Shown piece after piece: positions 6,861 to 19,365 of a stretch of 64,000 nucleotides of DNA. Below the pieces are notes generated by a model, which searched no databases, was not told the origin of the DNA, and saw nothing but the letters and a program-made list of their open reading frames with translations. Position 1 is the stretch's first letter, and the number at the start of each line of letters is the position of its first letter. The DNA is from Mesobacillus jeotgali (GTDB lineage: Bacteria; Bacillota; Bacilli; Bacillales; Cytobacillaceae), in the NCBI RefSeq assembly GCF_031759225.1, contig NZ_CP134494.1:3656501-3720500 (forward strand). Direction: 5' to 3'. The translations under genes and the position numbers were made by a program.

Positions 6861-8093
6861 ATGTTTTCAATGGATGTAGTCATTGAAAGAGCTTGTGGTA
6901 TGGATGTCCATAAGGATAACATTACTGCCTGTATCATCACCCCAAAAGGAAAGGAGATTCAAACATTCTCCACCAAAACTGTATTTCTATTACAATTGGT
7001 GGACTGGGTAAAACAACATGGCTGTACCCATGTGGCCATGGAAAGCACGAGCGTTTATTGGAAACCCATCGTGAATTTACTTGAAGCTGAGGACATAGAG
7101 TTTTTAGTGGTGAATGCCCAACATATGAAGGCCGTTCCAGGACGCAAGACAGATGTTAAGGATGCAGAATGGATTGCCAAACTGCTTCGACATGGACTAC
7201 TTAAAGCAAGTTATATTCCCGACCGGAATCAAAGAGAGCTGCGCGAGCTGGTTCGCTATCGCCGTAGTATCATTGAAGAGCGAGCTAGACAACATAACCG
7301 AATCCAAAAGGTGTTGGAAGGCGCGAACATTAAGCTGGGTTCTGTTGTTTCGGATGTACTAGGTGTTTCGGCAAGAGATATGCTTGACGCAATCGCAGAT
7401 GGAGAAGAAGATCCTGGGAAACTAGCAAACTTCGCTCGACGCACCATGAAAAAGAAGAAGGACGAACTTGAACTGGCCTTAAAAGGTTATATTAACTCCC
7501 ATCAAAGATTAATGTTAAAAACCATTTTAGGCCATATTGACTTTCTTACTGAACAAATCGAGATGCTCGATCAAGAAGTCGCGACAAGAGTAAGCGTTCA
7601 TCAAGAGGATGTAGAAATACTTGATTCCATTCCAGGCATTGCGACGCGGATGGCAGAACAGATCCTTTCTGAAATAGGAACGGATGTAAAAAATCAGTTC
7701 CCAACTGCAGCCCACATGTGTTCCTGGGCAGGTTTGGTTCCAGGACAGAATGAAAGTGCAGGGAAAAGGAAATCGGCCAAAACCAAAAAAGGAAACAAAT
7801 ATTTAAGGTCAGCGTTAACTGAAGCAGCTCATTCCGTAAGGGGATCCAAAAACTATCTCGGAGCACTGTATAGGCGTACAGCCTCACGAAAAGGCAAGAA
7901 ACGTGCTGGAATCGTAGTCGCTCACGCCATGTTACGTATCTCTTATTATCTCTTAACACGGAAAGAAATGTATGTAGACTTAGGCGAAGACTACTTTGAT
8001 AAGCAGAGACAACAATCTATTGTCAGGCATTCACTGAGACGACTAGAAAGCTTAGGATACATTGTTAAGTTAGAAGAACCTAAAGCATCTTAA
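6861..8093 (+). CDS. IS110-family transposase, copy 2
   Basis: A 410-residue recombinase identical in sequence to the copy at 5293-6525, with the same DEDD acidic residues and serine-bearing C-terminal domain. Being downstream of the reconstituted junction, it is the copy most likely to be expressed. A leftward promoter for glcD at 8371-8400 would transcribe antisense through it. Confidence 0.95.
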   Translation: MFSMDVVIERACGMDVHKDNITACIITPKGKEIQTFSTKTVFLLQLVDWVKQHGCTHVAMESTSVYWKPIVNLLEAEDIEFLVVNAQHMKAVPGRKTDVKDAEWIAKLLRHGLLKASYIPDRNQRELRELVRYRRSIIEERARQHNRIQKVLEGANIKLGSVVSDVLGVSARDMLDAIADGEEDPGKLANFARRTMKKKKDELELALKGYINSHQRLMLKTILGHIDFLTEQIEMLDQEVATRVSVHQEDVEILDSIPGIATRMAEQILSEIGTDVKNQFPTAAHMCSWAGLVPGQNESAGKRKSAKTKKGNKYLRSALTEAAHSVRGSKNYLGALYRRTASRKGKKRAGIVVAHAMLRISYYLLTRKEMYVDLGEDYFDKQRQQSIVRHSLRRLESLGYIVKLEEPKAS

Positions 8094-9336: not shown

Positions 9337-10134
9337 CTACGCAGCTAACGCGTGTCGATACTCAATCGGCGCGCGTTTCTTTAATTTCTTTTGAGTCCGT
9401 TTGTAATTGTAATGATAGATGAATTCTTCGATTGCTTGCCGTATTTCCTCTTCTGATTTACACTGTGCTATATACAACTTTTCGGATTTGAGATGTGAGA
9501 AGAATGATTCTACGCATGCGTTATCAAGGCAGTTTCCTTTGCGAGAGTGGCTGCCCTTGACGCCGAATGTCTCTAACCTATTGTTGTATGTCTTGGACGT
9601 ATACTGGAAGCCTTGATCCGAATGGAGAACGGCTCCAGCTACGTCCTTTTTATTTGTCCATTCATCAACAGTTTTTAATACGAGTTCTAAATCATTTCGT
9701 TTGGATATTTGCCATGCCACGATTTCATTGTTGAATAGATCTTGAATGACCGACAGGTAATAAAACTCTTTGCCGTCAGAAACATATGTGATATCTGTTG
9801 CCATTTTCTGATTTGGACCCACCGCTTTGAAATTTCTCTTTAGGCGATTTGGACATATAACTGAAGGTGTATGGCCATGGCGTTTCCTTTTCTTCCGGAT
9901 CACCGACTGTATGCCCATCTCCTTCATCAACCTGTACACTTTTTTATGGTTGATCAAAAAGTCACTTTCCTTTAACCAATCTGTTATTCGAGGACGCCCG
10001 AACTCTGGATGAATAAAATGAATGGCCATTATATGTTCTCGTACATCCTGTTCTTGTTTGAACCTTTCCTCGCGTTGTGGCAGAGTTGCTTTCCACTTAT
10101 AGTAAGAGGCACGCTTGATTCTGGCGATTTCCAT
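9337..10134 (-). CDS. IS3-family transposase OrfB (DDE integrase)
   Basis: 265 residues from the ATG, containing the rve integrase core. The first Asp is in ATDITYVSDGKEFYYL, the second in VLHSDQGFQYTS and the Glu in NACVESFFSHLKSEKL, giving a complete DDE triad. An HTH_21-type region (HPEFGRPRITDWL) precedes the core. The reading frame stays open upstream of this ATG (encoding YEIIEGLRGKYPVTWLM), so the natural product is probably an OrfAB fusion made by -1 frameshifting at 10233-10239. Confidence 0.93.
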   Translation of the reverse strand: MEIARIKRASYYKWKATLPQREERFKQEQDVREHIMAIHFIHPEFGRPRITDWLKESDFLINHKKVYRLMKEMGIQSVIRKKRKRHGHTPSVICPNRLKRNFKAVGPNQKMATDITYVSDGKEFYYLSVIQDLFNNEIVAWQISKRNDLELVLKTVDEWTNKKDVAGAVLHSDQGFQYTSKTYNNRLETFGVKGSHSRKGNCLDNACVESFFSHLKSEKLYIAQCKSEEEIRQAIEEFIYHYNYKRTQKKLKKRAPIEYRHALAA

Positions 10135-10160
10135 TAACCAGGTGACAGGGTATTTCCCCC

Positions 10161-10517
10161 TTAACCCTTCAATGATTTCATATTTTGCCTGACGGGTGAT
10201 GTCTTCTCCTCCTTTACCAGATTTGGATACTGCTTTTTTAAGTATTCTACCTGTGCCTTCAAATAATCTCTTTCTTCTTCCACCGTTTTAAAGTTAGTAC
10301 GTGGCCTTCCTTTTAAAGGGTTTGATACTCCACGCCGCTCATCAAATGACTGTCCGTTCATCCACTTCTTTACCCATACTTTAAGCTGTGTACAATTGCG
10401 GATCCCTAACTCTTCGGCCACTACCTTATAACTTTTAGATCCATTAACGTATGTTAATACTGCTTTCTGTTTGAATTCATTTGTATAACGTTGAAACTGT
10501 TGTCCTTTCTTAGCCAT
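10161..10517 (-). CDS. IS3-family OrfA (helix-turn-helix DNA-binding subunit)
   Basis: 118 residues. An HTH_Tnp_1/Homeodomain-like region (residues about 8-55, with KVVAEELGIRNCTQLKVWVKKW) is followed by a leucine-zipper stretch (VEEERDYLKAQVEYLKKQ). Near its end is the slippery heptamer A AAA AAG (10239-10233, minus strand), which would move ribosomes into the orfB frame to make the fused transposase. Confidence 0.92.
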   Translation of the reverse strand: MAKKGQQFQRYTNEFKQKAVLTYVNGSKSYKVVAEELGIRNCTQLKVWVKKWMNGQSFDERRGVSNPLKGRPRTNFKTVEEERDYLKAQVEYLKKQYPNLVKEEKTSPVRQNMKSLKG

Positions 10518-14519: not shown

Positions 14520-14546
14520 AAAAAAGCACCTGAAAATAGGTGCTTT
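14520..14546 (-). terminator. Terminator after cueP
   Basis: AAAGCACCT and AGGTGCTTT pair on the minus strand around a 6-nt loop and are followed by a T run. It starts 3 nt after the cueP stop codon. Confidence 0.85.
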
Positions 14547-14548
14547 CG

Positions 14549-15076
14549 TCACATAAGCTGCATGGTTGTTATGCATGTTGCGTCATTCTCAAATGTGGAT
14601 ATTTCTGATTCAACCGTTTTCCCGTTATATCCAATTTTTGTTTTGAACTTTTTATCACGGGGAAGCCACAAATCGATGAAACCATTCTGATGGGACATCA
14701 TCTTTTCGTCAACGACCACATTTCCGTCCTCATCTTCAATATATACATCAAACTCTTTTTCAACTAGTTCGCCTTGACAACCTGTCAAGCTATGGTTTGT
14801 TCAAGGATGGGTTTGATTTTCATACGGTGCGATCGAGACAAAGAAGTCTTCTTCCGAAGTGTCGTAGACTTGCTTGTCCCCTTCACTGTCGGCAATCGTC
14901 AGTTCATGTGAGGTGATGGAAGCATTGTGGCCCTTAACTTTGCCCGTGCTGTAATCACTCACCAATTCCTTGATGTTCTCTTGTTGTTCTTCAGGTTTCG
15001 CAGATTCCTCTCCGCCATTACAAGCAGTCAATAAACCTGCAGCCAAAAACGCAATTCCGAGGATTTTAAATTTCAA
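14549..15076 (-). CDS. cueP: CueP-family copper-binding lipoprotein with in-frame UGA at a Cys position (candidate selenoprotein)
   Basis: 175 codons plus stop when UGA (14801-14803, codon 92) is read through. The TTG start at 15074-15076 follows AAGGGGG and gives a lipoprotein signal ending LLTAC. Residues before the UGA read PYENQTHP and those after TNHSLTGCQGEL, in the same frame. CueP homologues have HPC-T-xHSLTGCQGE here, so UGA replaces the first Cys of the pair. Eleven nt after the UGA a perfect 7-bp hairpin with a GGT loop (14773-14789) has the size, distance and loop of a bacterial SECIS. Alternatives are a nonsense mutation, leaving a 91-residue fragment, or a base-call error. CueP proteins bind copper outside the membrane. 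Confidence 0.7.
14773..14789 (-). promoter_or_regulatory. SECIS-like hairpin downstream of the cueP UGA
   Basis: CTTGACA and TGTCAAG pair perfectly around GGT. The loop G lies 19 nt after the UGA. The GGU loop is the SelB-binding feature in the Escherichia coli fdhF SECIS. It falls within the codons for SLTGCQ, so chance is not excluded. Confidence 0.5.
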
Positions 15077-16800: not shown

Positions 16801-18231
16801 CTATTTTTTTGGAGCTGGCTGTTGTGCCGGGAAGTAACTGTTCACTGCTTTGTCTTTCTTCTTGAAGTTATCTTTTTCGTCGTAAACGGCCTTCTTCACT
16901 TTTTCTATCTCTGTTTTAACTTCTTCCAGATTTACGCCTTTCTTGGTCAATTCCTCGATGGCTAGATTGATTGCCGCATTTGACTCTTCAATTGATACCC
17001 TCAATGAATCCATTGATCCCTGAGGATTGTGGAAGCCTGCTGAACTTTCGGCAGCCACGATATCCCAGAACCATTGTCCTTTTCTGATATGCTCTTGAGC
17101 CTGCTTGATTTTCTCCTCGCTTACACCAGAAGTAATCATCTTATTCACGTAATAGTGTGAGGTGATCGAAATATCCTCAGCTTTATGAAGTGCTTCCATA
17201 TGTTTATCCTGGATACCAATTACACGTTCTTCTAGTTCTTCCATCTCCCTGTTGGTATGGCAGGTTGCGCATGATTGATCCATTGTCTTAAGCGGTGACG
17301 TCCACCAGTGTGAGCTGATTTTCTTTTTGCCATCCACACGGTCATATGGCATGTGACAGTCTGAACATGTAACTCCTGCTTCACCGTGCGGGCCTTCGAT
17401 ATGAGTCTCAAAATCGGGGTGCTGTGCTTTTAGCATAGGTGTTCCTGAAACGTTGTGAATCCAGTCCTTCTCAAAACCTTGCTCTTTAGCAGTAGTTTCA
17501 TAGTATTCGTACATATCTTCAGGTTCAAATCCGTTTGCCCATGGGAAAGTTACTTCTCCATTATCTGCTGCAAAATAGTACTCTACGTGGCACTGTCCGC
17601 AAACATAGTTTCTCATATCATTCTTCGTCGGATTGGACATGTCGATTCCCTGTGATTCCATTGCCTTGATGAAGCTAGGGCGTGTGACGCGCAAATCCAT
17701 TGTCTGCGGGTCATGGCAGTCAGAGCAGCCGATTGGTGAATGGCCCATCGCTTCTGCCTTTGGCCAGATGTCTTCGTTAAAATTGCCTCCCCAGTAATCA
17801 TCACCCATTTCCTCAATCATGTGAGGAACTGCAGTCGATTTACAAGTTAAGCATGAACCAATTGATTTATCAGTGATACGCGCGATCGCCCGGACATCCT
17901 CATTCGCGTAAATATGACCGCGGTCCTCATTGTACTCGGTCGCAAAGCCATAGCCGTTAAAAAGGACAGGCAGATACGGTTCCTTATCATGGTCGAACTT
18001 GCTTCGTTTGACGGAACCGCTGTACTTCGTATCCTCCATTTTTTCATTTTTCTTGTAGCTGTCATATTGTAGCGGGAAAAGGTCCTTGAAGGCCTCATTG
18101 CTGATTTCATCTTTGCTCAGCCCCGTTTTCAGCTCGCTCGCGGAAGTTGCTTCTTCTTCCGAGGAGCAGCCTGTTATGATGAGCATGACAGCCGCAAGGA
18201 GCAAGAATGCCCAGCGGAAATTTCTAGCCAT
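16801..18231 (-). CDS. nrfA: Ammonia-forming cytochrome c nitrite reductase NrfA
   Basis: 476 residues; reduces nitrite to ammonium with six electrons outside the membrane. It has five haem sites: the diagnostic CLTCK (127-131, catalytic lysine-ligated haem) and CSDCH (169-173), CGQCH (211-215), CSDCH (289-293) and CATCH (321-325). The N-terminus is a lipoprotein signal (LLLAAVMLIITGC, Cys22), so the enzyme is tethered to the membrane, as suits a cell without periplasm. The start overlaps the nrfH end by 8 nt. It takes electrons from NrfH. Attachment of haem to the CxxCK site often needs dedicated help; the ccm genes upstream may supply it. Confidence 0.96.
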   Translation of the reverse strand: MARNFRWAFLLLAAVMLIITGCSSEEEATSASELKTGLSKDEISNEAFKDLFPLQYDSYKKNEKMEDTKYSGSVKRSKFDHDKEPYLPVLFNGYGFATEYNEDRGHIYANEDVRAIARITDKSIGSCLTCKSTAVPHMIEEMGDDYWGGNFNEDIWPKAEAMGHSPIGCSDCHDPQTMDLRVTRPSFIKAMESQGIDMSNPTKNDMRNYVCGQCHVEYYFAADNGEVTFPWANGFEPEDMYEYYETTAKEQGFEKDWIHNVSGTPMLKAQHPDFETHIEGPHGEAGVTCSDCHMPYDRVDGKKKISSHWWTSPLKTMDQSCATCHTNREMEELEERVIGIQDKHMEALHKAEDISITSHYYVNKMITSGVSEEKIKQAQEHIRKGQWFWDIVAAESSAGFHNPQGSMDSLRVSIEESNAAINLAIEELTKKGVNLEEVKTEIEKVKKAVYDEKDNFKKKDKAVNSYFPAQQPAPKK

Positions 18232-18748
18232 TGTTCATCGTACCTCCTTTATTTTCTAAAAGCTCGCCTGGTTTCGGCGGTTTAAAATAATCCTCTGTTT
18301 TGAAGCCCTTGCCGTGCGGAACGGCCTGGTGGCAGCTTGAACAGCTGTCCTTCGCATCATGCGATACATTATCAAGTGTGTTTTCATGACAGCTGATGCA
18401 GTTCTCATTTATGACTTCCTCCGAATTTTCCGTTGCGTGGAGCACCTTCGGGATTTTTGCTTCTCCAAGTGTGTTGAAGTACACATGCGTCATCCCTGCT
18501 TTTGCCTTATAGGTATATTTCTCAACCATATTCTCATGAGGCAAATGGCAATCCCCGCAGGCCAGACCGGCGTGATTGGAATCAGAGAATGAGTCATGGA
18601 CCTCTGTCATGATATGGCAGCTTGAGCAAAATTCAGGTGAATCTGTATACGCAAGCGTTTTGACCGTGACGACAGAAACAATGATTCCAGCAAATACGCC
18701 AATGAATAACAGCATCTTTTTGTCTATTCCCAGCAGCTTTTTAAGCAT
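18224..18748 (-). CDS. nrfH: Tetrahaem menaquinol dehydrogenase NrfH
   Basis: 174 residues of the NapC/NirT family. One N-terminal membrane helix (about 12-34) is followed by four haem motifs, CSSCH (41-45), CGDCH (64-68), CISCH (117-121) and CSSCH (136-140). It oxidises menaquinol and feeds NrfA. ATG 18746-18748 has GGGAGGTG 6 nt upstream; an in-frame GTG three codons earlier is too close to that site. About 110 nt separate it from the thioredoxin gene upstream, with a GGCTGC/GCAGCC inverted repeat in between, so read-through from the ccm genes is likely but a separate promoter is possible. Confidence 0.95.
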   Translation of the reverse strand: MLKKLLGIDKKMLLFIGVFAGIIVSVVTVKTLAYTDSPEFCSSCHIMTEVHDSFSDSNHAGLACGDCHLPHENMVEKYTYKAKAGMTHVYFNTLGEAKIPKVLHATENSEEVINENCISCHENTLDNVSHDAKDSCSSCHQAVPHGKGFKTEDYFKPPKPGELLENKGGTMNNG

Positions 18749-18858
18749 TTTTTTCACCTCCCTTATAGCTGATCATTCAATCTACTAAAGGCTGCGCTGC
18801 TAGAAGAATTCAGCTAACAATGCAGCCATATTAAAACACGAATGTGCTTTAACCAAGG

Positions 18859-19365
18859 TTAAGGTGAAACTTTTTCCTGGATCAATCGGACCAAATCGTC
18901 CTTCGTTGTCGGGCCGGAGAAACGTTCAACAATGACGCCGTTCCTGTCGATGATGATCGTTTCAGGCTGTCCGATGACATTGTAATCCTTGGAAATTTCT
19001 TCTTTTGTATCTAAAAGATAAGTAAGTTTAGAGTTGCTTTCGGAAATATATTTTTCCATCCGTTTTTTTGATTCGCCTTTAGCAAGGATCAATAGCTTAG
19101 CGTCCTTATATTCGTTGCCGAATTCTTCGAGCTCAGGGGCTTCATCGATGCAAGGCGCGCACCATGTCGCGAAGAAATTCAGGACGACGGGCTGGCCTTT
19201 GAAATCGGATAGTTTATAAGTATTTCCGTCAATATCCTGCAGCTCAAAGTCGATGGACTGGTCACCTGGCTGGGCTGAAGCCTTCCCTCCCAGTCCGCTG
19301 ACCAAAAAGCCGAGAATCCCGATGACGGCAGCGATGACGATGATTGGCCCAATCTTTTTGCCCAT
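18859..19365 (-). CDS. Membrane-anchored thioredoxin-fold protein (ResA/CcmG type)
   Basis: 168 residues with an N-terminal signal anchor, then a thioredoxin fold with redox motif WCAPC (FFATWCAPCIDEAP) and the cis-proline region GQPETIIIDRNG. It would reduce apocytochrome cysteines outside the cell before haem attachment. It sits between the ccm genes and nrfHA and probably serves as CcmG in this system. The start follows AGGTGGTGA. Confidence 0.9.
   Translation of the reverse strand: MGKKIGPIIVIAAVIGILGFLVSGLGGKASAQPGDQSIDFELQDIDGNTYKLSDFKGQPVVLNFFATWCAPCIDEAPELEEFGNEYKDAKLLILAKGESKKRMEKYISESNSKLTYLLDTKEEISKDYNVIGQPETIIIDRNGVIVERFSGPTTKDDLVRLIQEKVSP

Follow-up and report, generated by a model that had tools for sequence, protein, structure and literature searches.

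A candidate selenocysteine form of the copper-binding lipoprotein CueP in Mesobacillus jeotgali and its relatives

The gene described here lies on the minus strand of a 64,000-nucleotide stretch of the Mesobacillus jeotgali genome (NZ_CP134494.1, positions 3,656,501 to 3,720,500; hereafter the window), which is a 4.63 Mb sequence in one contig. The frame runs from a TTG start codon (15076-15074), immediately 5' of which an RBS-like GGGGGTG can be seen by eye, to a terminal UGA stop (14551-14549). The sole internal UGA of this frame is codon 92 (14801-14803, minus strand), and reading through it gives a translation of 175 residues followed by the UGA stop (15076-14549). An earlier reading of these letters (the sequence-only reading) had placed a TGA at this codon in an otherwise open frame, which is correct, but the 176 codons that it counted include the terminal stop. 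The residues around the UGA read THP-U-TNHSLTGCQGE, and a lipobox, LLTAC, is recognizable by eye in the product. A plain ORF reading stops at the UGA, returning a 105-aa ORF from a TTG further upstream and truncating cueP at codon 91; usual gene calling cuts the gene at the same apparent stop. An intrinsic-terminator-like hairpin found by pattern matching (14522-14547, minus strand) begins at the second base past the distal stop. With this hairpin right after the distal stop, the transcription unit looks laid out to yield the full-length protein, which suggests that the cueP transcript spans the half of the gene beyond the UGA.

With the UGA read as Cys, the product matches NCBIfam NF038094 (CueP_fam) with 184.5 bits (cut-off 60) and Pfam PF21172 with 150.9 bits (cut-off 27). 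The score against the narrow met_chaper_CueP model NF038095 is 151.1 bits, under the cut-off of 195, so the product is not filed as the exact metallochaperone CueP subgroup. Residues 38-174 align with structure 4gqz (E 1.7e-33), an entry titled only 'putative periplasmic protein' that we take to be Salmonella CueP, and the UGA position aligns with a Cys of that structure, in THPCFNHSLSGCQGE. U92, C100 (codon 14777-14779) and C168 (codon 14573-14575) are aligned with the three Cys of 4gqz, and the HPC-x7-C motif is present with its first Cys as Sec. The flanks are as the sequence-only reading gave them, and its statement that CueP proteins have Cys at this point agrees with the structure. We presume that Cys96 and Cys172 are, beside Cys104, the other two conserved cysteines of Salmonella CueP, and the spacing would then equate Sec92 with Cys96, Cys100 with Cys104 and Cys168 with Cys172. 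CueP of Salmonella binds periplasmic copper and helps to metallate SodCII (PMC8264917), and the copper resistance that it confers requires Cys104 (PMC13201067). Lipobox and family together predict that the Mesobacillus product is exported, lipid-anchored and extracytoplasmic.

A putative bacterial SECIS hairpin (14773-14789, minus strand) starts 11 nt past the UGA, as had been noticed from the letters. It has a 7-bp stem (CUUGACA/UGUCAAG) and a GGU apical loop at 14780-14782. The gap between UGA and GGT is 18 nt, which puts the first G of the loop at nucleotide 19; the likeness to E. coli fdhF claimed earlier is real, and the same 18-nt register is found in two fdhA-like genes of the M. jeotgali genome.

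The window holds no tRNA gene, and the matches for selA, selB, selD and tRNA-Sec all lie elsewhere in the genome, in agreement with the earlier remark that no Sec machinery is visible in the window. The genome contains selA (560 bits), selB (a full-length match, 368 bits), tRNA-Sec (anticodon TCA, 58.3 bits) and selD (394 bits), so all four of the genes that the sequence-only reading had named as the ones to look for (selA, selB, selC and selD) are present. Other UGA-containing genes, which it had also proposed seeking, are there too: selD, which adjoins selA, has one in-frame TGA, as has each of the two fdhA-like genes (L213 and L216), one of which clears the TIGR01591 cut-off while the other falls short of it. 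Further selenoproteins are therefore likely in the same cell. The UGA-containing selD locus is G000:C1:2446886-2447812 (L208).

For the comparison across relatives, 193 genomes of the GTDB family were searched, 106 of which had a CueP match, together with 397 genomes drawn from the order, of which 88 had a match (12 of these already in the family set). Four short CueP fragments (G140, G141 and the second pieces of G375 and G396) were left out; G000 is the window itself. From the 191 loci extracted, eight failed the motif used for reading the site, leaving 183 cueP genes in 174 genomes with a readable site codon. This codon is UGA in 122 genes and TGT or TGC in 61. The UGA form occurs in 116 of the 174 genomes; 91 of its loci belong to the GTDB family of the source and 31 to twelve further families (f2, f5, f6, f17, f18, f20, f26, f29, f33, f36, f43 and f46), or 13 GTDB families in total. 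Among the eight omitted loci, L124 lacks the site; L154, L166, L168 and L193 have Cys in genomes where selA is not over the cut-off; L207 is partial, with Cys and no selA; L206 has UGA, lies at a contig end and comes from a selA-positive genome; and L200 is a decayed copy in which Tyr occupies the site, the second Cys codon is UGA and a TAG is present, in a genome without selA. Restoring those that can be read would not change the picture.

The site residue is Sec or Cys in 183/183 genes, the motif having left this position free. His is present at -2 and +3 in 183/183, as is Cys100, although the +3 His and Cys100 were required by the motif; Cys168 is retained in 180/182. A rough lipobox pattern matched 114/122 UGA forms and 39/61 Cys forms. 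Among the relatives with a name, the nearest share 95-76% identity and are strains labelled Mesobacillus or Bacillus, with M. selenatarsenatis SF-1, M. boroniphilus and M. subterraneus among them. The 41 named loci divide into 24 with UGA and 17 with Cys, and UGA carriers include M. selenatarsenatis SF-1, M. boroniphilus JCM 21738, Cytobacillus firmus DS1 and Bacillus methanolicus DE0196. Four loci (L230, L253, L266 and L248) carry the labels Chryseobacterium, Pseudomonas, Roseburia and Paenibacillus, which is odd for a Bacillaceae-like cueP, and these genomes are possibly mislabelled. Several genomes hold more than one copy: G182 has three UGA copies (L035, L051 and L060), G097, G007, G220 and G346 have two UGA copies each, and a UGA copy occurs together with a Cys copy in both G045 and G224. 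In a sample of the phylum, 9/398 genomes had CueP; the seven of these outside the order were without an internal stop, so UGA-CueP was not found beyond the order in that sample. A plasmid collection gave 23 records with cueP relatives, all of less than 60% identity.

This distribution bears on one alternative, in which the UGA comes from faulty sequencing or gene decay, the gene being dead or truly reading TGC or TGT. A single genome could not have ruled this out, and the decayed homologue L200 and a broken-frame copy, L125, are what it would lead one to expect. However, the same codon is UGA in 116 genomes, and other in-frame UGAs ahead of the terminal stop occur in very few of the 122 UGA genes. 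The coding sequence past the UGA is also under strong purifying selection. In 20 genus members, with SECIS codons excluded, dN/dS was 0.068 after the UGA compared with 0.121 before it, the latter taken by position without gaps, so that indels may inflate it (pairs with dS of 0.05-1.2, 132/190 before and 94/190 after; L125 left out). By this low value, the half of the gene after the UGA behaves as sequence that is translated and needed. Error or decay was rejected on the recurrence of the UGA at one codon, and we assign it a negligible probability.

The hairpin accompanies the UGA, as the sequence-only reading had proposed examining in homologues. Stem and GGU loop are found in 122/122 UGA genes, the seven paired positions around the GGT being kept in every one, with Watson-Crick pairs only in 117 and a G-U pair in 5. 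Counting distinct genes, 101/101 with UGA but only 3/60 with Cys have stem and GGU (p 1.9e-40; the Fisher tests for stem and selA ignore kinship), and in a fourth Cys gene, L148, the stem is present and the loop differs. The codons reflect this. In the UGA genes Leu is TTG or CTG, the Thr/Ala codon ends in A and Gly is GGT (each 122/122), while Cys is TGT and the first stem codon ends in C in 120/122 each; in the Cys genes the same residues are freely encoded by TTA, ACT, GGC, GGA and TGC. The pair formed by the first base of the Leu codon and the third base of the Gln codon is T-A in 110 UGA genes and C-G in 12 and is never broken. It changes at least 5 times on the tree (119 UGA rows), with C-G in five GTDB families. 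Synonymous codon choice alone would produce stem and GGT with a chance of approximately 1.4% per gene (mean of 122; highest 5%). A single copy is therefore only suggestive, but 122/122 is far beyond chance, kinship allowed for.

It could be argued that the hairpin is a mere reflection of the peptide SLTGCQG and that the UGA is a leaky stop read by a near-cognate tRNA (Trp or Cys). The peptide is conserved in the Cys forms too and UGA is somewhat leaky in bacilli, both of which count for this explanation. Yet in Cys forms with a similar peptide, changes at wobble positions do away with the stem, so a stem forced by the peptide was rejected, and the sharing by codon constraint that the sequence-only reading had considered is not seen. 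The UGA moreover tracks selA (see below), the site is Cys elsewhere and the GGU register is that of fdhA. We consider a leaky stop very improbable. A code in which UGA means Trp was also set aside, since relatives have Cys at this position and cueP itself ends in a TGA stop.

The three Cys genes with a complete SECIS-like hairpin are L025, L028 and L182. The first two are from selA-positive genomes and the third is from a genome without selA. They are probably fossils of a recent change from Sec to Cys.

Scoring selA as present when over the TIGR00474 cut-off, we found 114 genomes with UGA cueP and selA, 2 with UGA cueP and no selA, 24 with only Cys cueP and selA, and 34 with only Cys cueP and no selA (Fisher p 3.5e-18, uncorrected for kinship). 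Thus, 34/36 genomes without selA are Cys-only. The two genomes that depart from the pattern are incomplete (G179, 81%; G183, 80%), and both have tRNA-Sec and selB over the cut-off; selB over the cut-off was absent from all eleven other selA-less genomes searched for it. The 24 genomes with selA but only Cys-CueP indicate that Sec is not obligatory.

On a short and weakly supported protein tree (180 rows; three UGA rows of under 125 residues left out), the site switches between U and C at least 21 times. Six well-supported independent U/C contrasts are available. For the stem, 4 of them agree, none disagrees and 2 are tied, which is not significant. For selA as scored, the means are 2.6 agreeing, 1.0 disagreeing and 2.4 tied, and with G179 and G183 taken as Sec-competent they are 2.6, 0 and 3.4, again not significant. 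The kinship-corrected contrasts thus lean the same way, though they are too few for significance.

Alternatively, Sec could be inserted but serve regulation, selenium supply deciding at the UGA whether a short fragment or the full protein is made, with Sec chemistry adding little at the copper site. That the Cys forms manage without Sec, the U/C changes (at least 21) and the 24 selA-positive Cys-only genomes would all fit, as they make Sec and Cys look exchangeable. The restriction of the site to Sec or Cys in every one of the 183 genes, with Tyr in the decayed L200 only, points instead to chalcogen chemistry, and we regard a switch of this kind as unlikely.

We put the probability that this gene encodes CueP, the copper-binding lipoprotein, in a form with selenocysteine at codon 92 at about 94%. 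In such a gene, SelB and Sec-tRNA(Sec) would bind the GGU-loop hairpin 11 nt past the UGA, and Sec would be inserted at codon 92 to give the 175-residue protein, Sec92 taking the place of the first of the three conserved CueP Cys. Sec92 and Cys100 may form a redox-active or copper-binding pair, in which the selenolate could hold or reduce copper, and its recovery from a selenylsulfide might be easier than recovery of a thiol from a disulfide. If selenium were lacking, translation would end at the UGA and leave a 91-residue fragment without Cys100 and Cys168. We infer the copper role and the function of selenium as a copper ligand. That Sec92 is a direct ligand, forming a Cu(I)-selenolate site in an extracytoplasmic chaperone that is present in 13 GTDB families and has been repeatedly swapped for a Cys version, seems to us an evenly balanced proposition.

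The surroundings of the gene bear on the copper question. In the window, cueP adjoins an MFS gene and a sigma-54 regulator, and nrfA/nrfH-like and ResA-like genes are nearby. At 16801-19365, nrfA-like and nrfH-like nitrite reductase genes are followed by a gene for a ResA-like thioredoxin, all scoring below the NCBI model cut-offs. Transposase-like elements at 6861-8093 (IS110-like) and 9337-10517 (IS3-like, two-frame) flank a GntR-type regulator, as judged by eye. The window cueP is outside any copper gene cluster, which leaves homology as the basis for assigning it a copper role; among the 41 named loci whose neighbours were compared no gene cluster is common to the UGA forms beyond the Mesobacillus-like ones. 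In eight of these 41 loci (L243, L244, L245, L250, L251, L255, L256 and L261), a Cys cueP directly follows TlpA/ResA-like and CcdA-like genes on the same strand. A P-type ATPase gene is close to all eight; in seven it lies upstream in the orientation of cueP, and in L261 it is on the opposite strand. A DUF326 Cys-rich protein, which we take to serve in copper storage, is encoded close by in six. The identities of these genes come from Pfam matches of one representative per BLAST cluster, the others being assigned by clustering. We read this arrangement as linking the family to the export of metals and the reduction of thiols outside the cytoplasm, and it may constitute a copper export-reduction-storage operon.

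If the main substrate were a soft metal or metalloid other than copper, or if the protein were chiefly a thiol or selenol reductase, this would fit the nrfHA-like, ResA-like and cytochrome genes in the window, which has no copper genes next to cueP. Moreover, a 2026 review connects a large number of the metal-linked selenoproteins with Hg or As (PMC13188914). The close CueP_fam match argues against such a function, as do the eight Cys relatives beside TlpA-like and CcdA-like genes and a P-type ATPase, a candidate metal exporter. It is a doubtful alternative to copper, but the one to which we give most weight.

The 2026 review contains no mention of CueP, NF038094 or PF21172, either in the text or in the table of 119 prokaryotic selenoprotein (sub)families (PMC13188914), and a term search for CueP in a 2022 review found no occurrence. 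Open-licence papers combining CueP with selenoprotein or selenocysteine yielded one match, on hydroxyapatites by its title, and no Sec-CueP. Within the open-licence literature, the suggestion of a new selenoprotein class is upheld, and we judge the Sec variant of CueP to be a real, unlisted selenoprotein family in 13 GTDB families. It would add a common family (116/174 readable genomes) to those in the 2026 table and, if the copper role is as proposed, would link selenium to extracytoplasmic copper handling. The natural Sec/Cys switches, including the hairpin-bearing Cys genes, could serve directly for studying what drives the gain or loss of Sec. Should Sec92 be a copper ligand, paired natural Sec and Cys versions would allow a direct test of what selenium contributes to copper handling.

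Sec-CueP can be compared with three known systems. The first is the set of metal-linked selenoproteins which the 2026 inventory lists as CopZ-family (2Fe-2S)-binding proteins, the SO_0444 Cu/Zn efflux transporter, a mercuric transport protein, an E1-E2 ATPase and MbdU; these share the link between selenium and metal, but the families differ (PMC13188914). The second is formate dehydrogenase (fdhA/fdhF), in which, as in cueP, the UGA is followed after 18 nt by a GGU at the tip of a stem. The fdhA folds of the same genome have GGUCU loops in contrast with the GGU triloop of cueP, the stem sequences differ, and the proteins are unrelated, the cueP product presumably being exported. The closest is Salmonella CueP (4gqz), which has in common with the Mesobacillus protein the domain, the HPxxNHSLxGCQGE motif, the three aligned Cys positions and an extracytoplasmic site. 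In contrast, the Mesobacillus form appears to be a lipoprotein of a Gram-positive organism with a sub-cut-off NF038095 score, and it would carry Sec in place of the first Cys, with the SECIS inside its coding sequence.
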